From the IMG/VR virus record IMGVR_UViG_3300012944_000503, positions 1 through 21,101 of that record: DNA of 21,101 bases. One strand, given 5' to 3'. The notes beneath the pieces were generated by a model. It worked only from the letters and a program-made list of their open reading frames with translations. It did not search any database and was not told the origin of the DNA. Shown piece by piece: positions 1-16,439 of the stretch. Position numbers and translations under genes: made by a program. This DNA is from a virus. The number at the start of each line of letters is the position of its first letter. Position 1 is the stretch's first letter.

Positions 1-397
1 AGCCCTGGGGCCCGCCATAGCCCTGCTGGGCCATCATGGCTCGGCGGCGCGACTGCTCATCCTGCTCTTGGTTGCGTCGGTGCCACATGTACAATCCGCC
101 ACCGGCGAGCGTCGGTGCGAGCTTGCCCACGTTTCCGAGAGCCTGCTGTCGGTGAGTCGCTCGCGCGAGGTCCATGCTCTGCGGCGGCACGGCCCCCGTG
201 ACCAGGGCGGAGTTCATCTGTCCGCCCAGGCCGCCGCGCAGGTTGTGGAACAAATCCTTCGCGGCCCCGACCTGGCCCGACCCGAACGTCTTGAGCTTGT
301 CGAGGATCCCTGCTGGCGCGACGTCCGCGATCTTGAACCTTGCCAGGGCGCGCTGGACGCCCGCATGAGCAAACGAGGTGACGCGAGCCGACAGCAT
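1..397 (-). CDS. Partial CDS, small Ala/Gly-rich putative virion-associated protein (C-terminus off the left edge)
   Basis: Reading leftwards from ATG at 397-395, the frame stays open to the window edge for 132 codons, so the C-terminus is missing. The start overlaps the stop of the upstream gene (TGA 399-397 shares one base with ATG), which suggests translational coupling. The N-terminal part contains an amphipathic stretch, AGVQRALARFKI (about residues 12-23), that resembles GVLAALERFGLK in the neighbouring gene. A Gly/Ala/Leu stretch around residues 95-104 (APTLAGGGLYMW) could be a short hydrophobic segment. It is followed by a highly charged run (HRRNQEQDEQSRRR) and a Gln/Gly-rich tail. 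I recognise no catalytic motif or family. Its place downstream of portal and RNA polymerase genes suggests a late or virion-associated protein, which is inference only. Confidence 0.6.
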   Translation of the reverse strand, partial: MLSARVTSFAHAGVQRALARFKIADVAPAGILDKLKTFGSGQVGAAKDLFHNLRGGLGGQMNSALVTGAVPPQSMDLARATHRQQALGNVGKLAPTLAGGGLYMWHRRNQEQDEQSRRRAMMAQQGYGGPQG

Positions 398-864
398 CAG
401 ACGCCTCCAAACGCAGATGGACCAACACCAGATCGGCCGCCGACATCACCGGCGGCCATGTTGCTCGGCGGACCCCAGTTGGTCGAGCGATCGAGCGGGT
501 TCTTGGACGCCACGAGCCCGCCCGGCTGTGGTGGCTCGTCGAGCGCTTGAAGCATGCGCGCCAGGTCCTCCGACGACCGTCGGTCGCCGTAGGTGTTCGC
601 CTTCTTGGCGTGGCCCTTCGCCGCCACTGTCCTGCCTGCCGCGTCGAATCCGTGGAAGGTCCGATCCGGAATCTTGAGCCGAAGTTCCTCCCCGGCGTGC
701 TTGAGGCCGAAGCGCTCCAGCGCGGCAAGCACGCCCGACGCGCTCGCGCGCTTGACGTGCTCCGGGAGCATCTCGCCCTTGGGCGTGTGGTCCGCGAACT
801 CCCGTGCGACCTCGGGGTGGTTGGCCCATAGGTACTTTCGCTGCGCTTCGGATCGAAAGGGCAC
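397..864 (-). CDS. Phage protein with N-terminal 'FRSEAQRKYLW' motif, 155 aa, function unknown
   Basis: The start is GTG at 864-862 with AGGG just upstream; the next gene begins inside its stop codon. The first 30 residues (PFRSEAQRKYLWANHPEVA, then DHTPKGEMLPEHV) match a short motif I know from many small proteins of tailed phages, often near structural genes, whose role is not established. Residues 43-60 form a predicted helix (GVLAALERFGLKHAGEEL) that has a partial counterpart in the next gene. The last 45 residues are rich in Gly, Pro and Ser and look disordered. The gene follows the RNA polymerase chain after 20 bases, so it is probably in the same transcript. It does not resemble the missing C-terminal half of beta'. 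Confidence that it is coding is high, but no function can be given. Confidence 0.75.
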   Translation of the reverse strand: MPFRSEAQRKYLWANHPEVAREFADHTPKGEMLPEHVKRASASGVLAALERFGLKHAGEELRLKIPDRTFHGFDAAGRTVAAKGHAKKANTYGDRRSSEDLARMLQALDEPPQPGGLVASKNPLDRSTNWGPPSNMAAGDVGGRSGVGPSAFGGV

Positions 865-884: not shown

Positions 885-3800
885 TCACTCGCCGACGTGG
901 ATATGGTCGTTCAGGGCGACCTCGCCGCGATGGTACGCCGCACGGGCATCCTGCAGCGACGCGAACCTCTTCGCGGCTCGATCGGAGGCCGGCTGGGTTG
1001 CTCGGTGGAGACCGAGCACGGCTTCCATGTCGGGTGCGACGTTGAGCATGCCCGGCCTCCGATCCGCGAAGATCTGGTGCGAGAGCGTCATTCGTTTGAC
1101 GTCCTCCACGCCCGCAGGCGTCACCGGAGCGTGGATCTGCATCGCGTCGCCGTCATAGTCCGCGTTGGTTCCACGCTCGGCGAACGGGTTGAGCGTGATC
1201 GTTTTGCCTTCAGTCATCCTCGGATAGGCGCCGATGATGTTGTGGCGGGTCAGCGAGGGTGCGCGGTTCACCATGACCGGGCGTTCCCTGGTCTCGTTGA
1301 TCAACTCGTCTTTGGCGATCGGCGCCTTGTCCTCCACTAACTTCTGTGCATCGATAGCCGAATAGCCTCGACGCACGAGTCGCCCGATTACGAACTTGGA
1401 ATACATGCCCCAAAGCATGTCAGTGGGCACCCCGATCTCGTCCATGGACAGCGTCGGGTCCGGCGCGATGGTCGCGCGCCCGCTGACGTCCTGCTGGCGC
1501 TTCATCAATTTGGACTGGAAGAACCCCGAGCCCGGTCGGCTTCCCGTGATCGTCGCGATGTACCCCTTGGCGCCGCGACGCTGCACCCCCGGGCTGACCG
1601 GATCGCCGACGCCGAACAACGCGCTGACCGCGTCGTACAGGTGCCTACGCGGCGCGTGAAGCTCGGGCCCGGGCAGAACGCCCACCGAGTCCTTCAACTG
1701 GTCGTTCGCCAGAAACGCGTCGCGGTAGAGCAGGTTCGCGTCGCCGACTTGGAGCCTGCCGTCCTTGAGGGGAAGGATCGGTCGAATGACCGGCGGCGTG
1801 ACCGGCACCTTGCTGATCACGTAGGCGTCGGCGGGCTTCAGCCCGTGCGCCTGGAGAGCCGCCAGGTACTTGGCCTGCTTGACGGCATCGTCGAGCGCCG
1901 CGCCGCGCAGGCGTCTCGATCGATCGCGCAGCTCCTCGAGTCGGGACGGCACGTCGATTCGACCCAGCGCCGCGCGGAACCACTCGCCACCGTGGCCGGT
2001 TTTCTCCGTGAACTCCTTTTGCGTCAGGCCCAGGAGCCGGCGCACGGGCTCCTCGAATACGGGGTTGACAATCGGCTCGGACAGCTCGACGTGCGACCAC
2101 TTCGTCCCGGCCATTCCGCCGGTTCTCGCGGGGTCGAACATCCCGCCGGTCTCGGGACGCAGGTCCTTGGCCCTGACCATCTTGCTCGGCTCCGGGAGCA
2201 CGCCCGAGGACATTTTCAGGATGTCCGCGTCGGTGAGCGGTCCCAGCGCCTGCCTCGAGCCGGCCTTGGAGATCTTGACGCCCGCACCCGAGAGCATCGC
2301 GTGCAGCTTGTCGTACGCGAACGGCGTGCGCGGCGCGGGTGCGGGGGTGCCGAGCTGCACCGAGCGCCAGAACTCGTCGTTGCGCTGGCTCTTGATCGCC
2401 GCGGACTCGCGAAGCACGGCGCGGGCGTTGTGCGCGACGAGACCGTCGAACTCCATCTTGCCGATGCCCTTGGCTCCGTCATCGCCGCCGCGGGCCGGCT
2501 GCTGGTTGTAGTCGTAGCGCTCGGCGCCGTGCGCCGCCCAGTTGCTGTCGGTCGTCTTGAACAGCTTGAGGAAGTACGACTTGCCGACGAACACGCCTGG
2601 CACGCTCTTGCCCGTCATCGGGTCGACCACCGTCTCCTTGTCTGACAGGCCGTTGGCCTTGAGCAGGTCCTTGGCGTAGGCGACGGCGTCCCGCGCGGCG
2701 AACTGCGGGACGAGGATGGGCTCGCCTCGATGATCGGCGACCTTGCCGAGCGACGCCTCGACCAGCTGGGCCGGGTTGATGCGCGTGATGATGCCGGCGC
2801 TGGTGAGGATGACGTCGACCGGGCGACCCTTCTCGTCCTGGATCATCTGGGCGTCGGGCACGACCTTGGCGACCACCCCCTTGGCGCCGTAGCGGTTTGA
2901 GATCTTGTCGCCGACCTGCAGGGTCTCCTGCGTCTTGACCGTCGCGCTGTGGCGCTCGCCGGTCTTCGAGACATCGGTCACGATCCCCGGGTGGTCGTGC
3001 GTCCATGTCTCGACGACCTCGGCGTAGGGGCGAACGAGCGACTTGGAGAGCTTCCCTAGCAGCGCGGCGTCGCCCGTCGCGGTCTCTGGCCTCACACCGA
3101 TGATGATCGGGTCGCCCTTCTGCAGGACGGTCCCCGGCCGGGCGACGCCGCTCTCGTCGAGCGCGTCGTACTGCCGAGCCGAGTACCGCCCACCGAAGTA
3201 CGCGCGGTGCTTCTCCCTGTTGGTCTCGACATCGCCGGCCTTGCTCAGCACGTGATGGAACATGTGCTCGGACGTGAGCTTGTCCGCCGCGCCCTGGCTG
3301 ACCACGATCCCGTCGTTAGTGTTCAGGCCGCGATACGGCATGTACGCCACGCGCAGATTGGTTCCCAGCGCGAGCACGCCGTCCCTGGTGAAGTTGGACT
3401 CGGCGAGCGGCTGGCCTTCGCGCACGAGGTCTCCCTCCTTCACCGTCAGCTTGTTGTCGAGGTAGGTCTTGGCCGCGAGCGGGAGGTCGTGATCGTAGTG
3501 CAGGCGGATGGGCCCGTCGGCAGCTCGCTTCTCGCCGCTCGGAACGAAGTGGATGTAGTCTGCGTCGATCTTGTCGATGCGGCCGGCTGTCGGCGCGGTT
3601 GGCACGATCAGCCGCACCATCTCCCGCTCGACCGACATGCCCGGATTCCAAGACTCGACCTGCACCAGGGGCGCCTCGCGGTGCAGCAAGGGAAGCGCCT
3701 GCCCCTGGTGCTTCGACGCCATCAGTGCGCGGTTGCCCTGCATGCCGTTGAGCAAGGGGAGAAGGTTGGTCGTCGCGCCATACATGTCCGAGGCGTGCCG

Positions 3801-5261
3801 TATCTGGTAGGTCACCTCCGACGACGCCACGCGCTGCACGGATCCGTCCTTCATCACGTCGACGATCTTCCCCGCGCCGAGATCCCCTCCGGGGAACGCG
3901 ACCACCGCCTTGGCCATGTCGGCAGCCTTGAGGTACTCGTCCTTGCCGGTCCGGACGTTCCGCACGGGCGCGTACAGGTTGCCATGGTCGTCTCTCCGCG
4001 TGCCGATCCCGACGCGCAGGTCGACGCCGACCTTGAAGGACTCGGGCACGCGCGTGGGATCAATGATGCCGAGGTGCGTGGAATGGACGTCTCGGGCCTC
4101 GAGCGGAATCGCGCGCTCCGAAGCGATCGCGCCCTCGCCCAGCAAGGTGACGCGTGACGCCTCGTCGACAAGCTCCATCGGGTTTATCTGCATCGGGACC
4201 GCGGACAACGAGCTGGTCGTCAGGAATCCCGTGACGGCTCGCGTGAGCGGCGCGGCGGGCAGGGCTTCCTTGATTGAGCCCCGGTTGGCGTCGAGCTTCC
4301 AACCCAGCTTGTTGCGCATGGCGCGCGCGTCCAGCTGCAAGCGCTCCCTGACGAAGTCGTCCACCGAGTGGAACGTCTTGAACGCAAGGCTGTCGCGGTC
4401 GTCGACGTCGGCGGACTTGCGATGAACCTCGAGGATCTTGTTCGACGCGGCGAGCATGGCTTGTCCCGACGCCTTGTCGAACGGGCTTCCGAGCGTTACG
4501 CGGTTAACCTCCGGGTCCATCGACGTGGCCTCGAGGTACTCTCGGATGGCCCCGACGCGGGCCTCGGGCGTGGCGTGATTCCGCTTGGCCGGATGGATCA
4601 GGGCCTCGTAGAGACGCCCGACATGGGCGTCGGGAGATCGAAAAGCGTCGCGGTTGATGGCCGCGACCTGCGGTCCCCAGCTTCGAACGATGTCGTGGTG
4701 CGGGACGTCGAGCGCTCGAAGGACGGGATAGAGCGCGACGCGGGCGGTCGTGTGCCCCGGCTGCATGTACAGAAGACCCTTCTCGGGCTCCATCATGACC
4801 TTGAAGTTCGCACCCTTTGACAGGTTGAACGCCGCCTCCAGCTCCTCGTTGCCTCGCCGACGAACGTAGACGCCCGGCTTGGTCCGGAGCTGGTTGGACA
4901 CGGAGTACTCCGTGCCGTCGAGTATGAACGTGTGGCGCGGCGTGAAGTAGGGGAGATGGAGCAACGTGAATCCCTGGGCGCGGCTAGCCACCGCGCCCTG
5001 CGCGTCGCGGACGGTCAGATCGCCGCGGACGCGCTCCGACAGCGTCTTTCCCTCGAGAATGGCCATTTTCTGCTCGCGCGACGAGAACTCGCGCGGCTCG
5101 ATGCGGGCGTCGGCAAGCTCGACCGTCCACTTGCCCGCCTTCATGGGGAAGGCCTTGCCGAGACCCTGGATGGCCGCCTGCCGAATCTTCTCCCTGCGCG
5201 TGGTGCTGTCTTCGAGGACGGGCCTTAGAACCGGCTGTGTTTTGGTAGAAGCATCCGTCAT
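885..5261 (-). CDS. Phage DNA-dependent RNA polymerase, beta subunit fused to N-terminal part of beta' (1458 aa)
   Basis: The beta part spans about residues 1-995. It shows YFTPRHTFILDGTEY, a fork/rifampicin region (SSLSAVPMQINP, about 351-361), THLGIIDPTRVPE, YMPYRGLNTNDGIVVS, GDKISNRYGAKG with both active-site lysines (K786, K794), and a C-terminal GEME-like segment (GKMEFDGLVAHNARAVLRE). The beta' part starts within a few residues: GGMFDP, HVELSEPI, clamp helices, PVTPPVIRPILPL, QQDVSGRATI, VNRAPSLTRHNI and the metal-binding NADYDGD (1366-1372). The chain ends about 86 residues later, at a point matching roughly residue 540 of E. coli beta', so the bridge helix and trigger loop are absent. 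The start is ATG 5261 with AGGA nine bases upstream; ATGA overlaps the previous stop. An extension to 5444 would run through the preceding gene in another frame and shows no homology. Host-type rpoB and rpoC are longer and separate. Single-subunit T7-type polymerase is excluded. Confidence 0.93.
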   Translation of the reverse strand: MTDASTKTQPVLRPVLEDSTTRREKIRQAAIQGLGKAFPMKAGKWTVELADARIEPREFSSREQKMAILEGKTLSERVRGDLTVRDAQGAVASRAQGFTLLHLPYFTPRHTFILDGTEYSVSNQLRTKPGVYVRRRGNEELEAAFNLSKGANFKVMMEPEKGLLYMQPGHTTARVALYPVLRALDVPHHDIVRSWGPQVAAINRDAFRSPDAHVGRLYEALIHPAKRNHATPEARVGAIREYLEATSMDPEVNRVTLGSPFDKASGQAMLAASNKILEVHRKSADVDDRDSLAFKTFHSVDDFVRERLQLDARAMRNKLGWKLDANRGSIKEALPAAPLTRAVTGFLTTSSLSAVPMQINPMELVDEASRVTLLGEGAIASERAIPLEARDVHSTHLGIIDPTRVPESFKVGVDLRVGIGTRRDDHGNLYAPVRNVRTGKDEYLKAADMAKAVVAFPGGDLGAGKIVDVMKDGSVQRVASSEVTYQIRHASDMYGATTNLLPLLNGMQGNRALMASKHQGQALPLLHREAPLVQVESWNPGMSVEREMVRLIVPTAPTAGRIDKIDADYIHFVPSGEKRAADGPIRLHYDHDLPLAAKTYLDNKLTVKEGDLVREGQPLAESNFTRDGVLALGTNLRVAYMPYRGLNTNDGIVVSQGAADKLTSEHMFHHVLSKAGDVETNREKHRAYFGGRYSARQYDALDESGVARPGTVLQKGDPIIIGVRPETATGDAALLGKLSKSLVRPYAEVVETWTHDHPGIVTDVSKTGERHSATVKTQETLQVGDKISNRYGAKGVVAKVVPDAQMIQDEKGRPVDVILTSAGIITRINPAQLVEASLGKVADHRGEPILVPQFAARDAVAYAKDLLKANGLSDKETVVDPMTGKSVPGVFVGKSYFLKLFKTTDSNWAAHGAERYDYNQQPARGGDDGAKGIGKMEFDGLVAHNARAVLRESAAIKSQRNDEFWRSVQLGTPAPAPRTPFAYDKLHAMLSGAGVKISKAGSRQALGPLTDADILKMSSGVLPEPSKMVRAKDLRPETGGMFDPARTGGMAGTKWSHVELSEPIVNPVFEEPVRRLLGLTQKEFTEKTGHGGEWFRAALGRIDVPSRLEELRDRSRRLRGAALDDAVKQAKYLAALQAHGLKPADAYVISKVPVTPPVIRPILPLKDGRLQVGDANLLYRDAFLANDQLKDSVGVLPGPELHAPRRHLYDAVSALFGVGDPVSPGVQRRGAKGYIATITGSRPGSGFFQSKLMKRQQDVSGRATIAPDPTLSMDEIGVPTDMLWGMYSKFVIGRLVRRGYSAIDAQKLVEDKAPIAKDELINETRERPVMVNRAPSLTRHNIIGAYPRMTEGKTITLNPFAERGTNADYDGDAMQIHAPVTPAGVEDVKRMTLSHQIFADRRPGMLNVAPDMEAVLGLHRATQPASDRAAKRFASLQDARAAYHRGEVALNDHIHVGE

Positions 5262-5629
5262 GGGATCCTGTATGGCACTACGGCAGCTTCTTCCCCGCCA
5301 CCCGCGCCGCCAACCACTGCCGGCTGTGGGCGCTGCGCGGGCGCGTCGGTGAAGTAGGACAGGATGATCACGACCTCGCCTTCCTTGGTGAAGGTTCTGT
5401 CCTCGAATCGAATCTTGCCCCGTCCGGCCCACAGCTCGTTGCACAGCTCGTCGTAGGCGGCGATGTTCCGCGGCAGGTTGAACACCTGGGTCGTCTGCCG
5501 GATCGGCAGACGCGGTCCCTGCGCCAACGCCTGCTGTGGGATGCCGAATGGGCTCGCGATCGGGCCCTGCGTCATCTGGTTCGCCTGGTCAATCACGTCC
5601 TGAAAGCCGCCCACGTTTGGCTTGTTCAT
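5258..5629 (-). CDS. Hypothetical protein, 123 aa, between portal and RNA polymerase
   Basis: ATG at 5629-5627 lies four bases after the portal stop, with an AGGAT Shine-Dalgarno inside the portal 3' end; its stop overlaps the polymerase start (ATGA). The first 45 residues are Gln/Pro/Gly-rich and probably flexible. The central part (about 48-93) looks like a compact alpha/beta domain, with NIAAYDELCNELWAG, then GKIRFEDRTFTKEGEVVIIL, a helix followed by two or three strands. The tail is rich in Ala, Gly and Pro. I do not recognise the family. The tight packing means it is made together with the portal and polymerase, so a virion role or a polymerase-associated role are both possible, but neither is shown by the sequence. 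Confidence 0.8.
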   Translation of the reverse strand: MNKPNVGGFQDVIDQANQMTQGPIASPFGIPQQALAQGPRLPIRQTTQVFNLPRNIAAYDELCNELWAGRGKIRFEDRTFTKEGEVVIILSYFTDAPAQRPQPAVVGGAGGGEEAAVVPYRIP

Positions 5630-5633
5630 GGCG

Positions 5634-7430
5634 CTATCCTATCTGATCCGAGGCGCCAACGCCGTCCACGTCCGCGCCGCCCGCGGTCGGGTCCTGCCCG
5701 GTGCGCGCCACGCTGATCGCGGCCCTGTTCTGCTGGTGGACCGCGTTCTCCATCCGCTCCTTGACCAGCGCGTACATCGGCAGGTCGGTGGTCTGGAGTT
5801 GGTGCATCTGCGACTGGCGCGTGCCCTGGTCGAGCGGCATCAGCTGCTCCACGACGCTGTCGGCCTGGTCGATCATCTGCTGGGGGTCGTAGGCGGCGCC
5901 CTGCTGACCGAGCTGCGCCTGCGCGCGGACCCGGGCGCCAAGCTCGGTCTGGCGCTTCTGCAGCTCGACCTGCGTCTCTGCGTTCATGCGGGCGTCGTCG
6001 AGCATCTCCTGCTTCCGCTTCTTGCGCTCCTCGATCGGGTCGACGTCGAACGGCTTGCCCATCGTGGTCTTGGAGATCCAGGGACCGTTCTGGGGATCAG
6101 CCATGTTGAGCTGCATCAGCAGCGCCTTTTGCTGGACATCGTCGATGAACCTGAACGGCGCAAGCTCCGTCGGCATCGGTCCCCAGCCGAGCTTGCGGCC
6201 GGCGTTGTCGGTGATCCACTGCAGGAAGTCGTTGAGATCGCCGGTCTGGTGAACGAGCTGGTTTTCTAGGACGCGAAGCTGGATCCCCGAGCCCATCGCG
6301 GAGAACCCGCCGTAGATGAACTCTTTCGGCAGGCCCATGGCCGCGATGATGTTGTCCTCCGCCGCTTGGACTTCGCCGAGCGTCATGAGCGCACGGGCCT
6401 GCCCGCCGAGATGCGTGACCTCGGCGGGGACAGGGGACCACATGATGTGCAGCGGGTCGCGGCGCCAGCGCTTGACCGAGTGCTTCATTTCGTTGGTCCA
6501 GGTCGCCAGGTTCATCGACAGGAGCGGATCCGCGTTCCCGGTCGACTGCTTCGGACTGACGATGCGGAGCGGCACGATGTAGTCCAGCGCGATCGCCTCG
6601 TTGGCCTTGCGGAGGACGGCCGCGTAGAAGAAGAGCTTGATGGTGGATGCCAGCGGCGGGAAGCCCCACTGGGCCTCGATGCCGGCGGGCGCGTCCATCT
6701 TCATGTGGAAGACCTGGTTCTCGGCGAACTTGAAGATCTTGTCGTCCCTCATGGCCTTGAGGAACTCCATGGGCAGGCTGTCGATGAGGTGCTTGTTGTT
6801 CTTGGCGACGCGCTCCTTCATCTCCTTCGGGATCGTCCAGAAGTACTCGCTGTGCCCGGTGATGGGGTTGTAGTCGATGTCGACCAGCTTGGGGTCCCAT
6901 CGGATGATCGCGATCTTGTCGGGGCGCGTGATGGGCTTGTCGACGACCGCCTCGGGTCCAACGTCGACCTTGGCCCGGCACGAGGCGCACGTGTAGCTGA
7001 ACGAGAGCTTCTTGAGGCGGAACTTGTAGCTGACCGATCCGGCGTTGGACAGCTGGCTGCACGCCGGGCACCGCAGGAACCGCACAAACGGCGAGTACAT
7101 CGAGTAGAAGGCGTTGCCGTACACGAACTTATCGATGGCCGCCTTGATCAGCCAGCGCTTGGTCTTGAGTTTCTTGTTGTGCAGGTCCTCGTACTTGGAC
7201 TTGAGCCCCTCGTTGGTCGTGTCGTACACGATGTCCGTGATCGGGTACGTGCAGAACTTTTGAAGCGCGGCGAAGATCTGGCTGCAGTTGAAGTAGAGGT
7301 ACTCGCACAGCCGGAAGAGGTCCTTCAGCTTCCTCGGCGCGAACGCGGTGAGGAAGTCGAACAACGGCGAGCCGTGGCTCGACACGTTGTGGAAGGAGAG
7401 ATCTGCGCCACCAGGATCGTTGTCCAACAT
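5634..7430 (-). CDS. Phage portal protein with internal zinc ribbon, 598 aa
   Basis: The portal forms the dodecameric ring at one capsid vertex through which DNA is packaged and to which the tail attaches. Portal-like features are the length, the YGNAFYSMY segment (about 100-115), RWDPKLVDIDYNPITGHSEYF, a middle region with TLGEVQAAEDNIIAAMGLPKEFIYGG, and a long Gln/Glu-rich C-terminal helix and tail. Unusually, residues 121-151 hold CPAC and CASC (C121, C124, C148, C151), a four-cysteine zinc ribbon placed between two strand-rich segments. The start is ATG 7430 with AGGATAA upstream. The open frame continues further upstream but crosses the divergent regulatory region. The assignment rests on overall pattern rather than one diagnostic motif, so it is likely but not certain. 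It is the first gene of the minus-strand operon. Confidence 0.78.
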   Translation of the reverse strand: MLDNDPGGADLSFHNVSSHGSPLFDFLTAFAPRKLKDLFRLCEYLYFNCSQIFAALQKFCTYPITDIVYDTTNEGLKSKYEDLHNKKLKTKRWLIKAAIDKFVYGNAFYSMYSPFVRFLRCPACSQLSNAGSVSYKFRLKKLSFSYTCASCRAKVDVGPEAVVDKPITRPDKIAIIRWDPKLVDIDYNPITGHSEYFWTIPKEMKERVAKNNKHLIDSLPMEFLKAMRDDKIFKFAENQVFHMKMDAPAGIEAQWGFPPLASTIKLFFYAAVLRKANEAIALDYIVPLRIVSPKQSTGNADPLLSMNLATWTNEMKHSVKRWRRDPLHIMWSPVPAEVTHLGGQARALMTLGEVQAAEDNIIAAMGLPKEFIYGGFSAMGSGIQLRVLENQLVHQTGDLNDFLQWITDNAGRKLGWGPMPTELAPFRFIDDVQQKALLMQLNMADPQNGPWISKTTMGKPFDVDPIEERKKRKQEMLDDARMNAETQVELQKRQTELGARVRAQAQLGQQGAAYDPQQMIDQADSVVEQLMPLDQGTRQSQMHQLQTTDLPMYALVKERMENAVHQQNRAAISVARTGQDPTAGGADVDGVGASDQIG

Positions 7431-7503
7431 GGAGATGTTTATCCTATAAACTTTGTAGACATTGCTGCGCGCGTCGTGTAACGGTGCGCAGGAGGTTTTC
7501 CGC
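7431..7503. promoter_or_regulatory. Divergent intergenic region between the late (minus) and recombination (plus) arms
   Basis: These 73 bases are the only non-coding DNA between two divergent operons, so both transcripts probably start here or just inside the flanking genes. The region is locally AT-rich in a GC-rich genome. It contains an inverted repeat, TTTAT-cct-ATAAA, at 7438-7450. Reading leftwards, TTACAC and, 18 bases later, TACAAA resemble weak -35 and -10 boxes for the portal operon. For the plus strand, TATAAA lies 19 bases after a TTGTCC that is inside the portal start region. These box assignments are by eye and tentative. A phage-specific promoter class is equally possible. Confidence 0.45.
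7490..7495 (+). promoter_or_regulatory. Shine-Dalgarno site that sets the helicase start
   Basis: A perfect AGGAGG lies eight bases before GTG 7504. It fixes this GTG as the start rather than the alternative initiation codon at 7462, which has no comparable site. Confidence 0.85.
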
Positions 7504-9462
7504 GTGAACCTTGAGATTCGAGTCGGCGCCGCGGGCAACGGGACGCCCGTGTTCATGGCGACCGGAAGCCATCCGGCGCTGGGACGCCCGTTCGGGGCTG
7601 TGTACGATTCCGGTCGTCGGCTCTGGATGTACCCGGCGTTTTACCCTGCCTCGAAGAAGGTGTTGTCCGACCTGGAGGTGATGTCCAAGGACTTCCACGT
7701 CACGTTCTCCGATGTCGCCAGGCGTCACGTGGTGGATCTCGAGCACGTTGAGGAGAGTGTAGCGAATCGGGCGCTTCCCGTGGGGTTCGAGTTCGTTACG
7801 CCGCCCTACGATCACCAGGTTCTGGGGTTGTGCCACGCGTGGTGGATGCTCCGTGCCGCGATCTTCTACGCCCCGGGGCTTGGGAAGTCCAAGATCGCGG
7901 TCGACCTGATTCGGCTGATGCGTCACGTCGGCCAGCGCGGCACGGTCCTCGTCCTGGGACCTCTCGTCACCGTCACCAACTGGGGCCGGGAGATCGACCG
8001 GCACTCCGGCGGCCAGCTTCGGTGGGTGATCCTCCACGGCTCCCCGGCCGAGCGGGTCGACATCCTGTCCACGATCGTGGAACACCCCCCGGACGTCGTG
8101 CTTCTCACGTATGACGGAGCGCGCGCGATGTCCACCGACCTCGTACGCCGGGTGCCGTACGCCGCGGTCATATGCGACGAGTCTCACCTTGTGAAGTCGT
8201 GGGAGTCGGGCCGAACGGTCGCGACCTACGACATTGCGCAGAAGGCCTCCCGGCGAATCCTGATGACGGGGTCCCCGACGCAGGGAGATCCGCGCGACAC
8301 CTACGGCCAGTACAAGGTCCTCGGCGACTGCTTCATGCCGGAGGACTACTCGCAGTTCAAGCGCAAGTTCCTGGTGACGCCGAGCCCGCGGTCCCACGTG
8401 GTGACCGGGTTTAAGAATCTCGACGTGCTCAACGGGCGGGTGACGTTCCTGTCGCTGCACAAGACGAAGGAGGAGTGCCTCGACCTTCCGGAGCAGGTCA
8501 TCGTGGACGTTCCCTACGTGTTGTCCAGGACGCAGAAGGTGGTGCACAACCAGCTTGTCGAGCAGATGGAGGTCGATCCTAACATCCTCGCCATCCTCAT
8601 GTTCGGACGACAGGCGTCGCTCCCGCCAGCGTCCCGCATGCCTCATCGCGCGGCGATGTTGATCAAGCTGCTGCAGATCGCGTCGGGGTTCCTCATCACC
8701 AATCCGATCGACGACGCGTTCTGCGACCAGGCAGAGCCCCATGGCTGCCGGCATCTCGAGGCCTGCGTCGAGGCCCGGATCCGCCCGCACACCCCTCGCT
8801 GCCTGGTGGACTCGACGAAGCTCCCCGACGTGCTCACGACGTTCGATGAGAATCCCAAGCTCGACGCGACCGAGGGGCTGCTCGAGATGATCCTGGCCGA
8901 CCCCGTCAACAAGACGATCATCTGGTGCACGTTCGAGAACGAGTTGAACATCGTGTCCGCCATGCTCGATCGGCGAGGGTGGGGTCACGTCCGGGTCGAC
9001 GGGTCCAACAGCCGGGAGGCCCAGGGGCTTATCGATCAGTTCACCGCGGACGCCGGACTGCGCGTGTACCTGGCGCAGGTCTCGACGGGCGTCGGGGTGA
9101 CGATCAACGCGGCCTCCTACATGATCTACTACGCGCTTCCGTTCTCGCTGATCGTCTACGAGCAATCCAAGGACCGGAACTACCGGATCGGGCAGACACG
9201 GAAGGTTACGGTGTATAGGATGCAGGGCGAGGGGACGCCCGAGCCGGCGATCGCTCGCCTTCTCGACGTCAAGATCGACGTCGACGATGCGCTCACGCGA
9301 CGTACTGATTGCATGCGATGCGAGCACAATCCCACGTGCATCCCGGCGGGCGTTCATCCGTTTGACGCCGGGTGCTCCGTGTACAAGAGGACCATTGACA
9401 GGCCGGTCACGCGGGCTCGCTCGTTCGAGGGAGCCGACGCGCCGGACATGGAGGAACCTTGA
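7504..9462 (+). CDS. SNF2/DEAD-like superfamily 2 helicase/ATPase with two four-cysteine modules, 652 aa
   Basis: The protein carries SF2 motifs in order: Q-like PPYDHQ, Walker A APGLGKSK (K128), motif Ia-like LVLGPLVTVTNW, Walker B DESH (225-228), motif III LMTGSPTQ, motif V STGVGVTINAA, and motif VI QSKDRNYRIGQT (R561), a pattern typical of the SNF2 branch. It should use ATP to translocate on or remodel DNA. Two cysteine modules are inserted: C407, C415, C421, C433 between the RecA lobes, and C603, C606, C612, C624 near the C-terminus. Both end C-x5-C-x11-C, which suggests duplicated zinc or Fe-S sites. The gene opens the plus-strand operon and its TGA overlaps the TTG start of the next gene. 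A role in phage recombination or replication fits the nearby RecB-like nuclease. Confidence 0.88.
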   Translation: MNLEIRVGAAGNGTPVFMATGSHPALGRPFGAVYDSGRRLWMYPAFYPASKKVLSDLEVMSKDFHVTFSDVARRHVVDLEHVEESVANRALPVGFEFVTPPYDHQVLGLCHAWWMLRAAIFYAPGLGKSKIAVDLIRLMRHVGQRGTVLVLGPLVTVTNWGREIDRHSGGQLRWVILHGSPAERVDILSTIVEHPPDVVLLTYDGARAMSTDLVRRVPYAAVICDESHLVKSWESGRTVATYDIAQKASRRILMTGSPTQGDPRDTYGQYKVLGDCFMPEDYSQFKRKFLVTPSPRSHVVTGFKNLDVLNGRVTFLSLHKTKEECLDLPEQVIVDVPYVLSRTQKVVHNQLVEQMEVDPNILAILMFGRQASLPPASRMPHRAAMLIKLLQIASGFLITNPIDDAFCDQAEPHGCRHLEACVEARIRPHTPRCLVDSTKLPDVLTTFDENPKLDATEGLLEMILADPVNKTIIWCTFENELNIVSAMLDRRGWGHVRVDGSNSREAQGLIDQFTADAGLRVYLAQVSTGVGVTINAASYMIYYALPFSLIVYEQSKDRNYRIGQTRKVTVYRMQGEGTPEPAIARLLDVKIDVDDALTRRTDCMRCEHNPTCIPAGVHPFDAGCSVYKRTIDRPVTRARSFEGADAPDMEEP

Positions 9463-9911
9463 AGAACAAGACCACCTACGAGATGGACGACATCATGGGT
9501 CTCATCACGAGAGACCTCGAGGAAAAGGGGCTCGAGCCGGACTCGGCGTCGGTCGAGATCTGGGTTCGCGTTGACGGGGCGCGTATCAGCGTCAAGGAGA
9601 TCGAGATCGAGGCCAACGTGTCTTGGAGCGAGGTCCCCATGCGGTCTCGTCACCGCGAACCGGAGCTGAACGACGACGCCTTGTCGGCGCCTGCGGACCT
9701 GCTTGACGAAGCGCCATCCCCCCGCAACAGGCCCACGTTGGCGATCGGTGACATCGGGGAGCCGCCGGGCACCGTGGAAGACATCACGGCCGCCAGCACC
9801 AAGATCGCACGCGCGGGTGGTGTAGGTCCGTTCTCGCCCGACCGCGTCAAACGGCGTCTGTCCGACGACGAGTCGACCGAATATCCCAGCACTACCCCAA
9901 GGGGGCGCTGA
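9459..9911 (+). CDS. Small phage protein, 150 aa, function unknown
   Basis: It starts at TTG 9459, which overlaps the helicase TGA and has GGAGG at 9450-9454; its own TGA overlaps the next ATG. Such coupling on both sides supports it as real. The first 60 residues look folded: a helix (YEMDDIMGLITRDLEEKGL) followed by strands (SVEIWVRVDGARISVKEIEIE). From about residue 62 to the end the chain is Pro, Ser, Asp and Arg rich and probably disordered. I know no function for it. Lying between a helicase and a RecB-like nuclease, it may be an accessory factor for them, which is inference from position only. Confidence 0.78.
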   Translation: MKNKTTYEMDDIMGLITRDLEEKGLEPDSASVEIWVRVDGARISVKEIEIEANVSWSEVPMRSRHREPELNDDALSAPADLLDEAPSPRNRPTLAIGDIGEPPGTVEDITAASTKIARAGGVGPFSPDRVKRRLSDDESTEYPSTTPRGR

Positions 9912-10831
9912 TGGCGACCGGGATGGAGGACGTCGAGGACCTCATTGACCCGGCGATCAGCATGCCGTCCGACGTCGAGCCGGAGATGTCCGATCTCCTG
10001 CCGCGTGGGTATTTGTCGGTGTCGCAGGCCGCGACATTTATCAAGTGTCCGCGCCAATGGGCGCTCCTGTACGTTGAGCAGAAGGCTCGGCGCGCGTCCG
10101 CGCGGATGCTGCAGGGCGTCTTCGTGCACGCCGCGGTGGAAGTTGTGCTCAAGGAGATCCTGGCGACCGGCAAGCTTCCGCCGCTGGCGCTTGCGACCGA
10201 CTCCTTCTCCGACGCCTTCGAAGCCAACAAGAATCTGATCGACGATTGGGAGGACTCGCAGCCTGGCACCGTCAAGGACGTTGGCATTGAGTGCGCCAAG
10301 ATCTTTCACCAGAACGCGGGACCGACTTCCACGCCGGTCTCGGTCGAGACTACGTTCCACGTGGTGATCAAGTCCGAGGACGGCAAGGTTCGCCTTCCCA
10401 TCCTCGGTCGCATCGACAGCACGCAGGTCCAGGCGCACACCGACGCCGAGTACCAGCAGATCCGAGAGGACATCGCCGCGGGTCGGCCGTCGCGCAAGCC
10501 CCTCCGCATTCACGACCTGAAAGTCAGCGCCGACAAGAAGAACGAGGCTGACATCGAGAACAGTCTCCAGTTCGCCACGTACGCGCACGTCGAGGGCATT
10601 CCCGACATTCAGATCGATAACTTGGTGAAGGGGCGCGCCAAGGTCCCGAGACCCCGCTACGAGAAGATTACGGGTGTCATCACGCCGCGGCAGGCCAAGC
10701 ACGCGCTGAGGGTCCTCGAGGGCGCCGCACGCTCCATCGCGCTAGGTCACTTTCCCCCCACTGATCCAGACAACTGGTGGTGCTCCGAGAAGTGGTGTCC
10801 CGTGTGGGGACACTGCAGGGGCGCCGGCTGA
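9911..10831 (+). CDS. PD-(D/E)XK nuclease, RecB/Cas4-like, with predicted Fe-S cluster, 306 aa
   Basis: This is a RecB-type exonuclease domain with an N-terminal SVSQAATFIKCPRQW box, the GVFVHAAVE motif, GRIDS (D169), IHDLK (D202, K204) and a Q-x3-Y-like motif (NSLQFATYAH). One cysteine near the N-terminus (C46) and three near the C-terminus (C291, C296, C302; C-x4-C-x5-C) match the arrangement that holds a 4Fe-4S cluster in AddB and Cas4 nucleases. It should degrade or trim DNA ends, probably with the helicase two genes upstream. ATG 9911 overlaps the preceding TGA. No CRISPR repeat or other cas gene is nearby, so a CRISPR adaptation role is unlikely here. It is related to, but clearly different from, the second nuclease at 15612-16439. 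Confidence 0.88.
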   Translation: MATGMEDVEDLIDPAISMPSDVEPEMSDLLPRGYLSVSQAATFIKCPRQWALLYVEQKARRASARMLQGVFVHAAVEVVLKEILATGKLPPLALATDSFSDAFEANKNLIDDWEDSQPGTVKDVGIECAKIFHQNAGPTSTPVSVETTFHVVIKSEDGKVRLPILGRIDSTQVQAHTDAEYQQIREDIAAGRPSRKPLRIHDLKVSADKKNEADIENSLQFATYAHVEGIPDIQIDNLVKGRAKVPRPRYEKITGVITPRQAKHALRVLEGAARSIALGHFPPTDPDNWWCSEKWCPVWGHCRGAG

Positions 10832-12873: not shown

Positions 12874-13376
12874 AGCTCGCCGAGTACGTGATGTCCCTGC
12901 GCGAGGGTGCGGATCCTCGCAGGGACGCCTCGTTGGACCCCGTGGCGCGCGAGGTCGTCATTCAGCTCCGCGATCACGCGCCGCCCACGCTTCTGGAGCG
13001 ACTCGCGAAGCTGGACCGGATCGGACTGCTCAATGGCGATGTGCTGATGTCGTTGATCGCGCAGGCGCCCATCGATCCGCTCAACTTGTTCGCCACGATC
13101 CAGCAGAACAGCCCGGGCGAGTGGGTGTTCAGCGGGATCGACTTCGGCGTGGTTCGCGTGCTCGCGCGAAACGACGCGGGCAACGTCGCGGCCGCGGTGC
13201 GGATCGACTTGATGGACTCCAGTGTCAGCACGCTGGTTCTCAACCAGGCGGGGCAGCTCACGCCGTTCCGCCGCTACGAGCCCGAGGGGCCAGAGATCCT
13301 GGAGCGGGTCCAGGCGATGTGCGACGCGGCGATCGCGGCCGCGGCTAGGGAATTTATGCGGACTCGGCCGAGCTGA
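12870..13376 (+). CDS. Hypothetical protein, 168 aa, coupled to ParB-like gene
   Basis: It starts at GTG 12870, overlapping the ParB-like stop (GTGA), and ends 23 bases inside the 3' end of the opposite-strand sigma gene. The N-terminal 80 residues look helical (REVVIQLRDHA, LLERLAKLDRIGLL). The middle looks strand-rich (EWVFSGIDFGVVRVLARND, AAAVRIDLMDSSVSTLVL), and the C-terminus is an Ala-rich helix. I do not recognise the family. Coupling to the ParB-like gene suggests the two products work together, which is inference. Confidence 0.75.
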   Translation: MKLAEYVMSLREGADPRRDASLDPVAREVVIQLRDHAPPTLLERLAKLDRIGLLNGDVLMSLIAQAPIDPLNLFATIQQNSPGEWVFSGIDFGVVRVLARNDAGNVAAAVRIDLMDSSVSTLVLNQAGQLTPFRRYEPEGPEILERVQAMCDAAIAAAAREFMRTRPS

Positions 13377-14232
13377 CTAGGCCGAAGAGCGCGGCGTCCG
13401 CCTCGAGGTCGCGGCGGAGCACGTCGGACTCGAGGTCGCGTCGAACGAGACGGAGCGCGATGACCTTGATTTGCCGGACACGCTCCGGGGTCATTGACAT
13501 GATCTTTCCGATCTGTTCGAGGCTGCGAGGCTCGTTCCGGACACCGAAGTGAAGGCGGATGATGGTCGCCTCGCGCGTGGGTAGTTTGGACAACGCTGCC
13601 TCGAGCAGATCGGAGAGCTGTTTCGCGTGGTATTCGCTCGCAATTTCGACGCCTGCGCAAAGCTCCTCGTCACACACGTCTTCGATTCGGACGACGGGGT
13701 AGGTGACGCACTCGACGGCGGACGCCGCCTCCGAGCGGGGACCGTGCTGGGCTGCCGCCATTCGCTGCGCGTGTGCCTGCTTGCGCTGCTCCTTCTGCTT
13801 GTGTGTAGGGATGTGGACCGTCGAGCTGGACGCGTAGTCCTGGTCCATCATCTCCTTGTAGACCCAAGTCCCCGCGTAAGTGAGGAACCTAATGTACGGC
13901 GTCCTCTCGGGATTGAAGTGCCCCGGCTCGATCGCGCGCAGCAGGCCGAGGTTGCCGGCGGCGATGTAGTCCTGGAGGGCGTTTCGGTCGTTGGTCTTGC
14001 GATGCGCTTGGCGGACCACGAAACGGAGGTGGCTCTGGACCACGATGTCCCGCGCCCGCACGTCCCTGTGCCGCTGCCACAGCCGGATCAGGACGCGCTC
14101 CTCGTGGGGGTCCGTCACCGGCCGGGTGTTTCCTATGCTCGCGTAGTACGAGCGGCGGCTGTCCTCTTCGTCCGCCAGGTGGCGGGCCACACGCGGACGG
14201 TCGCTTGTCCTAGGACGAAAAGACTGATCCAT
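13354..14232 (-). CDS. Sigma-70 family RNA polymerase sigma factor, 292 aa
   Basis: Region 2 spans about 44-134, with the core-binding AAGNLGLLRAIE (91-102) and the region 2.3-2.4 segment FLTYAGTWVYKEMMDQDY. Region 3 begins with STVHIPTHKQKEQRK (137-151), closely like the start of region 3 in primary sigmas. Region 4 (about 208-268) has LSKLPTREATIIRLHFGV and the helix-turn-helix RSLEQIGKIMSMTPERVRQIK. It should bind an RNA polymerase core and recognise -10 and -35 elements. The aromatic pair of region 2.3 (WW in E. coli) appears as TW here, and the positions that read the -10 box also differ, so its promoters may be non-standard. It is the only minus-strand gene in the right arm. It could serve the host core or the phage polymerase chain at 5261-885. 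Confidence 0.9.
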   Translation of the reverse strand: MDQSFRPRTSDRPRVARHLADEEDSRRSYYASIGNTRPVTDPHEERVLIRLWQRHRDVRARDIVVQSHLRFVVRQAHRKTNDRNALQDYIAAGNLGLLRAIEPGHFNPERTPYIRFLTYAGTWVYKEMMDQDYASSSTVHIPTHKQKEQRKQAHAQRMAAAQHGPRSEAASAVECVTYPVVRIEDVCDEELCAGVEIASEYHAKQLSDLLEAALSKLPTREATIIRLHFGVRNEPRSLEQIGKIMSMTPERVRQIKVIALRLVRRDLESDVLRRDLEADAALFGLVSSAESA

Positions 14233-15611: not shown

Positions 15612-16439
15612 GTGGCCCACGCATTGACCGTGACCCCGGCGGCGTTGAAGCACGCCGCGTGGTCGTTCTCGAAGATGGAAACAGGCGAGTCCTGCCCTGC
15701 GCAGTTCAAGCACAAGCACGTACTGCGGACCGCCGCGGGGCCGTCTGCGCCGGAGACCGTGGTCGGCACCGCTGCCCACGGCATCTTGGAGCACCGGGTC
15801 AAGGGCGCTAACGCATCTGACGCCAAGAAGGTCGCGCTGGAGAACACGCCGTTGACCTCGGACGAGCAGGACACGCTCCGCACGCTCGAGGAGCGCATGG
15901 ACTCGTTCATGCGAAAGTTCGACGGGTTCTGCAGGCGCGAGGGCGTGAAGCGTCTCCTAGTGGAGGAGGCGTGGGGGATCACCGCGGAGTTCAAGCCGGC
16001 TGGGTTCTTTGACAAGAACGTGTTCTTCCGCGGCAAGGTCGACCTCGGCGTCATCACGCGGCACGATGACCTCGTTGTCATCGACCACAAGTCCGGCGTG
16101 GCCAAGGACCTCGCGAAGGACAAGAAGAAGCAGATGCAGCTGTGGTCGTACTACATCCTTGCGATCCCGAACACGCCGGGCGTGAACGGGGTGCGGGGCG
16201 CGATCCACTTCCTGCAGGGTGATGAGGCCAAGGCGATCCAGTGGATGCCCAACTTCGACGACGCGACGCGCGTACGCGAGGTGTACGCGCCGTGGCTGTT
16301 CTCGCGCATCAACGAGATCGCCGAGACGCTCGTCGAGCCGTTCCCCGCGAAGCCCAAGCTCCGGTGGCCCTGCGAGTGGTGCTCGTACCAGGGCAGCTGC
16401 GGACCGTTCCAGGAGACCTTCGGTGGCCAAACGAGCTAA
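15612..16439 (+). CDS. PD-(D/E)XK nuclease, Cas4/RecB-like, with predicted Fe-S cluster, 275 aa
   Basis: This second RecB-type nuclease has SFSKMETGESCPAQF, GTAAHGILEH (H56), FRGKVDLG (D144), VVIDHKSG (D158, K160) and the QLWSYY motif. Cysteines C28 and C254, C257, C263 (C-x2-C-x5-C) give the one-plus-three pattern of a 4Fe-4S cluster, with spacing closer to Cas4 than the first nuclease has. The likely role is 5' or 3' end processing during replication, recombination or host DNA breakdown. GTG 15612 has GAGGTG eight bases upstream, and no other start is better placed. Its last 17 bases overlap the primase gene, so the two are probably translated together. No CRISPR array is nearby. Confidence 0.88.
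   Translation: MAHALTVTPAALKHAAWSFSKMETGESCPAQFKHKHVLRTAAGPSAPETVVGTAAHGILEHRVKGANASDAKKVALENTPLTSDEQDTLRTLEERMDSFMRKFDGFCRREGVKRLLVEEAWGITAEFKPAGFFDKNVFFRGKVDLGVITRHDDLVVIDHKSGVAKDLAKDKKKQMQLWSYYILAIPNTPGVNGVRGAIHFLQGDEAKAIQWMPNFDDATRVREVYAPWLFSRINEIAETLVEPFPAKPKLRWPCEWCSYQGSCGPFQETFGGQTS
16411..16415 (+). promoter_or_regulatory. Shine-Dalgarno site that sets the primase-helicase start
   Basis: AGGAG lies seven bases before GTG 16423, inside the 3' end of the nuclease gene. It supports this start over the open but Arg/Ser-rich, shadow-like extension reaching back to 16219. Confidence 0.8.

Follow-up and report, generated by a model that had tools for sequence, protein, structure and literature searches.

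This locus raises the question of what kind of RNA polymerase (RNAP) a phage makes when a single gene joins the β subunit to only the first part of β′. The window, i.e., the complete 21,101-nucleotide stretch of viral DNA analyzed here, carries such a gene (Table 1), and a first-pass annotation made from the letters alone had read its product as β plus N-terminal β′ in one phage chain. Our preferred reading, to which we give a probability of roughly 0.78, is that the phage encodes an RNAP of the cellular type with two catalytic chains, of which this one is the larger; the enzyme would act as a two-chain core and would probably be directed by a sigma factor.

Table 1. Features of the window, ordered by position; residue numbers refer to the fused chain, and L001 is the closest relative.
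Feature	Position	Strand	Basis
Partial second small gene; its direct successor in L001 is β′C	1..398	-	alignment with L001
Conserved small gene, lying after the fused chain and before β′C	397..864	-	weak PHROG 1375 match
Fused RNA polymerase chain β–β′N, 1458 aa	885..5261	-	ORF, Pfam, profile search
β′N part, residues 996-1458: clamp region, double-psi barrel	888..2276	-	Pfam, profile, mapping
NADYDGD, residues 1366-1372, three Mg-binding aspartates	1146..1166	-	aligned to bacterial NADFDGD
β part (residues 1-995), which reaches almost to the β C-terminus	2277..5261	-	Pfam Rpb2, profile vs PDB β, model, mapping
β active-site lysine K794 (AKGVV)	2880..2882	-	invariant in alignments A1 and A3; aligned to bacterial K
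β active-site lysine K786 (GDK)	2904..2906	-	invariant in alignments A1 and A3; aligned to bacterial K
Variable slot, residues 581-590, short in the window chain	3492..3521	-	
Small gene with a 4-nt overlap between its end and the RNAP chain start	5258..5629	-	ORF list, synteny
Portal protein (homologue of Arash gp204), encoded upstream of the RNAP as a conserved neighbor	5634..7556	-	homology, synteny
SNF2-type helicase, syntenic across much of the clade	7462..9462	+	domain and profile matches, synteny
PD-(D/E)XK (RecB/Cas4-like) nuclease, one of two in the window	9911-10831	+	
Sigma-70 family factor, regions 2 and 4	13354..14232	-	domain and profile matches
PD-(D/E)XK (RecB/Cas4-like) nuclease, the other of two in the window	15612-16439	+	

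One Chain Combines β with the N-Terminal Part of β′

The open reading frame starts with an ATG at position 5261 of the minus strand, terminates with a stop codon at 885-887 and encodes 1458 residues. Pfam detects domains of both large subunits within this one chain: Rpb2 domain 6 (3.4e-42) and Rpb2 domain 3 (1.9e-5) as well as Rpb1 domain 2, which covers the NADYDGD region (1.1e-19). The annotation had proposed profile searches of the two parts, and a profile built from ten members of the family matched both strongly: profile positions 85-1023 align with RNAP β in the PDB (3.8e-108), while positions 1007-1455 align with residues 39-563 of β′ (1.4e-74). Mapping onto the Acinetobacter RNAP places residue 995 only 8 residues short of the β C-terminus, residue 1000 at about residue 14 of β′ and residue 1456 at about residue 548 of β′; the β′N part ends ~85 residues after NADYDGD. 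By the same mapping, the linker between β and β′ comprises ~5 residues, in agreement with the near absence of a linker noted in the annotation, and the Pfam, profile and mapping results together bear out the β–β′N fusion itself. The entire 1458-residue chain contains no cysteine, and the N-terminal zinc ribbon of bacterial β′ is consequently absent.

A structural comparison, likewise proposed beforehand, supported this assignment for one half of the chain: In a model of residues 300-1458 (mean pLDDT 80.8), the β part matches bacterial β (Synechococcus) with Z up to 36.5, while the best matches listed in the structure search do not extend over the β′N half, whose assignment thus rests on sequence. 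The hallmarks of two-barrel, cellular-type RNAPs, namely the DxDGD triad and the paired barrel lysines, are present, and the aspartates D1368, D1370, and D1372 are invariant in 44 aligned members. The chain is under purifying selection: Comparison with L001 (96% identical) yields a dN of 0.024 and a dS of 0.425 (dN/dS ~0.06), and the junction region (residues 960-1060; 0.018/0.321) behaves in the same way as the whole chain.

The Remainder of β′ Is a Separate Gene

A domain search of the window found no Rpb1 domain 5. In 17 of 18 large related records, the remainder of β′ (β′C, PF04998) is encoded on the same strand shortly downstream of the fused chain, mostly as a protein of ~600 aa. Two small genes separate the fused chain from β′C in L001; the window tracks L001 up to its own edge, and the ATG of β′C lies ~19 nt past window position 1. 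The annotated layout was hence correct with respect to the fused chain, but it had to be completed by a separate downstream gene for the remaining β′, located just beyond the window edge.

The modelled β′C (mean pLDDT 86.9) corresponds to bacterial β′ from about residue 657 almost to the C-terminus (Z ~29); by sequence, β′C starts at about residue 571 of β′, so that the cut falls after the double-psi barrel at ~548/571 (Acinetobacter numbering). The PF04998 and model matches locate the bridge helix and the trigger loop in the β′C of the relatives, outside the window. H319 is invariant in the β′C alignment A4, and we take it to occupy the position expected for the trigger-loop histidine by alignment to E. 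coli. Because β′C is a separate gene, the enzyme would comprise a two-chain core, [β–β′N] plus [β′C]. In L012, L021, L022, and L025, the β′C ORF spans 975-1111 aa instead of ~600 and carries an uncharacterized C-terminal extension.

Alternatively, a split intein might rejoin β′N and β′C after translation, such that the working enzyme is a single chain, and intein-like inserts do occur in the chain of relatives. A split intein, however, needs roughly 100 + 35 residues, which the end of chain 1 and the start of chain 2 lack, and the two chains tile full-length homologues, covering the whole of β′, with a gap of ~4 residues. As there is no room at the cut, we rejected this route as highly improbable.

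The Fused Chain Recurs in a Widespread Phage Clade

A search of viral contigs retrieved the fused layout in 80 distinct ORFs on independent contigs. In Salmonella phage Arash, gp206 (1525 aa) is the same chain with 35% identity over the whole length; Vibrio phage D69 encodes the same fused chain as an annotated hypothetical protein, and in Vibrio phage D181 it is interrupted by a homing-endonuclease gene. Contigs assigned to Desulfovibrio piger and Desulfovibrio sp. An276 also carry the fused chain, which hints at hosts. In GenBank, the isolates of the clade carry no annotation beyond 'RNA polymerase subunit beta' or 'hypothetical'. The fused chain is therefore not an isolated case but marks a large and widespread phage clade. 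The window comes from a viral contig of metagenomic origin, and the annotation had named an assembly artefact as a possible source of the fusion; yet an identical fusion in that many distinct ORFs and in the complete genomes of isolates such as Arash and D69, together with the low dN/dS across the junction, rules out a chimera or mis-joined contig and leaves it practically no chance.

A Complete Fusion Most Likely Preceded the Cut

A scan begun from bacterial-type β′ revealed relatives that the annotation, right about the fusion itself, had missed: sister phages with β and all of β′ in one chain, the likely origin of the window layout. In eight viral contigs (L225, L227, L231, L233, L271, L272, L275, and L300), a single ORF of 2,154 to 3,033 aa contains β, β′N, and β′C in this order, with L271 being cut at the contig end. 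The β′N-matching region of L227 stops at 1599, and its β′C-matching region starts at 1604. As in the window, a portal gene lies upstream of the RNAP in four of these full fusions (L225, L231, L275, and L300).

We computed a maximum-likelihood tree of β + β′N from 36 sequences and 1,321 columns, rooted on bacteria; Saccharibacteria matches from the genome scan, which at ~27% identity turned out to be ordinary cellular RNAPs, served as bacterial outgroup. The window clade as well as its union with the full fusions obtained 100% UFBoot support each, and the separate-gene phage RNAPs fall on a different branch. Within this tree, the full fusions are paraphyletic to the window clade: Forcing their monophyly changes the score by -117 log-likelihood units and is rejected by the AU test (p 6e-58), while the tree is deep and support for the order in which the full-fusion lineages closest to the window clade branch is just 65%. 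Given this paraphyly, the full β–β′ fusion most likely came first in an ancestral phage, and β′C would have been separated once, at the base of the window clade. We give about even odds to the broader history in which a tailed-phage lineage possessed a complete single-chain, cellular-type β–β′ RNAP that was later cut at a new place, yielding an alpha-independent, sigma-using two-chain core, some members of which have enzyme domains inserted in β. The clade would thereby record a fuse-then-cut sequence in a molecule usually taken as fixed: Two halves joined and then recut elsewhere would show how freely the ancient RNA-making machine is rearranged.

Among the separate-gene phage contigs, several (L251 and L282, which are the same contig, L285, L286, L292, L293, and others) carry two RNAP sets, one of them with a longer β of ~1,360 aa. 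The phage records SA 1306 Kay and Efs 1-1-1 (L124, L125) were discarded as separate-gene phage RNAPs because they group with bacteria; they are probably misfiled bacterial contigs, as are L126 and MD-2021a, the latter of which carries ribosomal genes. OR844998, OR846602, and CAKLQH020000005 are labelled as phages, yet their RNAP genes are bacterial, which suggests host or contaminant contigs filed in the wrong place.

Proposed Assembly and Promoter Use

In the proposed enzyme, chain 1 would provide β, continued covalently into β′ through the double-psi barrel with NADYDGD, and chain 2 (~600 aa, encoded just off the window) would provide the rest of β′ with the bridge helix, the trigger loop and its histidine, and a C-terminal zinc site. 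Both chains would assemble to a core enzyme without a recognizable phage alpha subunit, the β–β′ fusion possibly replacing alpha as the assembly scaffold, and the phage's own sigma factor would most likely direct this core to phage promoters. Sigma-directed transcription of phage genes would then be the function of the enzyme. Homology, conserved catalytic residues, the tiling of the two chains, purifying selection, conservation across the clade, the lack of alpha matches, and the sigma gene are observed, whereas assembly, activity, sigma dependence, and the scaffold role of the fusion are what we infer.

A search with PF01000 detected no alpha in 23 large or partial, possibly incomplete records of fused and separate-gene phages; 13 of 14 control genomes were positive. 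The window's own record is a fragment, and this search would overlook an alpha that has diverged strongly or an assembly factor of another family. A sigma gene (region 4 or region 2) is present in all 12 phage records tested of the fused-and-cut clade, and sigma domains were found in none of eight full-fusion records, several of which are short. For this reason, we limit the proposed sigma dependence to the fused-and-cut clade and do not extend it to the entire enzyme family; the phage sigma could instead serve the host polymerase. The missing phage alpha would also fit a hybrid in which the phage chains are joined by alpha, omega, or sigma of the host, as would the closeness of the chains to bacterial β and β′ in sequence and fold. 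We nevertheless consider such a hybrid doubtful, since the phage has both catalytic halves complete and phiKZ-type enzymes also lack alpha (PMC7598289).

Promoter-like words were obtained from Arash (L318-L326), the Arash-related contig G018 (L337-L345), and D69 (L327-L336), while none stood out in G001, a relative with 66% GC. In Arash, GGTATAAG occurs in 31 copies versus 2.6 expected, 30 of them on the minus strand and mostly shortly before genes; G018 likewise contains 31 copies, 30 of which lie on the strand opposite the Arash RNAP and structural genes, and the corresponding motif in D69, GTTATAAG, is distributed 18 versus 1 by strand. TAAAATA is biased to the RNAP strand (plus in Arash) and occurs just upstream of the β′C gene in Arash and G018. 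The motifs are thus strand-specific, with (G/T)TATAAGTAA on minus-strand genes and TAAAATA on plus-strand genes, and two putative promoter classes are likely.

This arrangement bears on a further possibility, in which the polymerase is made late with the structural proteins, packaged into the virion, injected with the DNA and transcribes the early genes on the opposite strand. Such a virion polymerase would be a special case of the preferred two-chain reading, narrowed as to when and where the enzyme acts; it competes with the view that the enzyme is made early and reads late genes. The RNAP gene adjoins the portal gene throughout the clade, and in Arash the RNAP and structural genes with TAAAATA lie on the plus strand, opposite most copies of the first motif, both of which would suit packaging; neither the gene position nor a sigma gene demonstrates it, however, and we regard it as possible but rather unlikely.

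Comparison with Known Polymerases

How does the two-chain core relate to described enzymes? In Helicobacter and Wolbachia, rpoB and rpoC are fused at full length in a cellular enzyme that includes alpha. The window chain likewise joins the β C-terminus to the β′ N-terminus but has a second cut, inside β′; we therefore rejected membership in this type, as only β′N is fused in the window; full-length fusion occurs in sister phages, e.g., L233. The division of β′ after the NADFDGD domain is reminiscent of cyanobacterial rpoC1/rpoC2, whereas the phage cut lies ~65 residues earlier (alignment to the 624-aa gamma subunit) and the cyanobacterial β is unfused.

The RNAPs of phiKZ and AR9 have a β′ cut after the double-psi barrel and no alpha; their β is in two or three pieces unjoined to β′, there are usually two enzymes per phage, and sigma is lacking (PMC7598289, PMC7824862). 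The window enzyme resembles them in that the catalytic subunits are re-divided, β′ is cut after the barrel, and no alpha was found. In contrast, its β is in one piece (residues 1-995) and joined to β′N, and both the window and every tested member of the clade encode sigma, which rules out phiKZ-type membership. The crAss-like phage phi14:2 encodes gp66, a highly diverged single-subunit RNAP, and the crAss RNAP is not recognized by the cellular profiles used in PMC7481178 (PMC10770324, PMC7481178). Although β and β′ functions share one chain in gp66 as in the full-fusion sister phages, profiles detect both halves of the window chain strongly, and this chain stops within β′, ~85 residues past NADYDGD, with β′C separate; crAss-type membership was rejected accordingly.

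The mReC phages of PMC7481178 share with the present clade that they are tailed phages whose RNAPs are found by cellular β/β′ profiles and form a deep group of their own; the paper treats β and β′ as separate subunits and mentions fusion only for crAssphage. Judged by that description, our enzyme is set apart by the fusion of β to β′N and by the detached β′C. The criterion given there, β and β′ matches of at least 800 aa each with NADxDGD in the COG0086 match, encounters here one 1458-aa chain with NADYDGD that holds both matches and a β′C of ~600 aa. Yersinia phage YerA41, which shares the division of β′ into two genes, and Cobetia phage Carin-5 have phage β and β′, but their β is a separate gene, and they are distant in a larger tree without support values. 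The annotation had been unable to place the layout in any described group: We, too, found no description of β–β′N plus β′C in the literature searched, although the clade already includes GenBank isolates. The layout may nevertheless have been catalogued before, since multisubunit derivatives with fused barrels are mentioned, without further specification, in PMC10770324. The closeness of the clade to bacterial RNAP makes comparison with cellular enzymes easier than for the phiKZ or crAss enzymes, and Arash and D69 offer a cultivable system for asking if the union of β and β′ in one chain allows a core of the cellular type to form in the absence of alpha.

Insertions in the Chain of Relatives

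The slot at residue 581, short in the window chain, holds inserts of at least 120 aa in 14 distinct members. The loci concerned include L011, L020, L022, L025, and L017. GNAT acetyltransferase domains occupy the slot in four loci, and L017 has an inorganic pyrophosphatase domain there (PF18823, 2.5e-34); an enzyme domain within an RNAP β subunit is unusual. Intein-like inserts of 348-381 aa that start with Cys and end with GN are found in the β part of L055 (L009), L056 (L010), L102, and L117 at the equivalent of window residue 407 (about position 4041). L014-L016 contain a 352-aa intein-like insert with a LAGLIDADG match at the equivalent of window residue 787 (about position 2901), which falls inside the conserved GDK/NRxG active-site motif of β. 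Finally, L053, L068, L080, L083, and L085 carry inserts of ~495-542 aa at the end of NADYDGD, window residue 1372 (about position 1146), and these are probably inteins.
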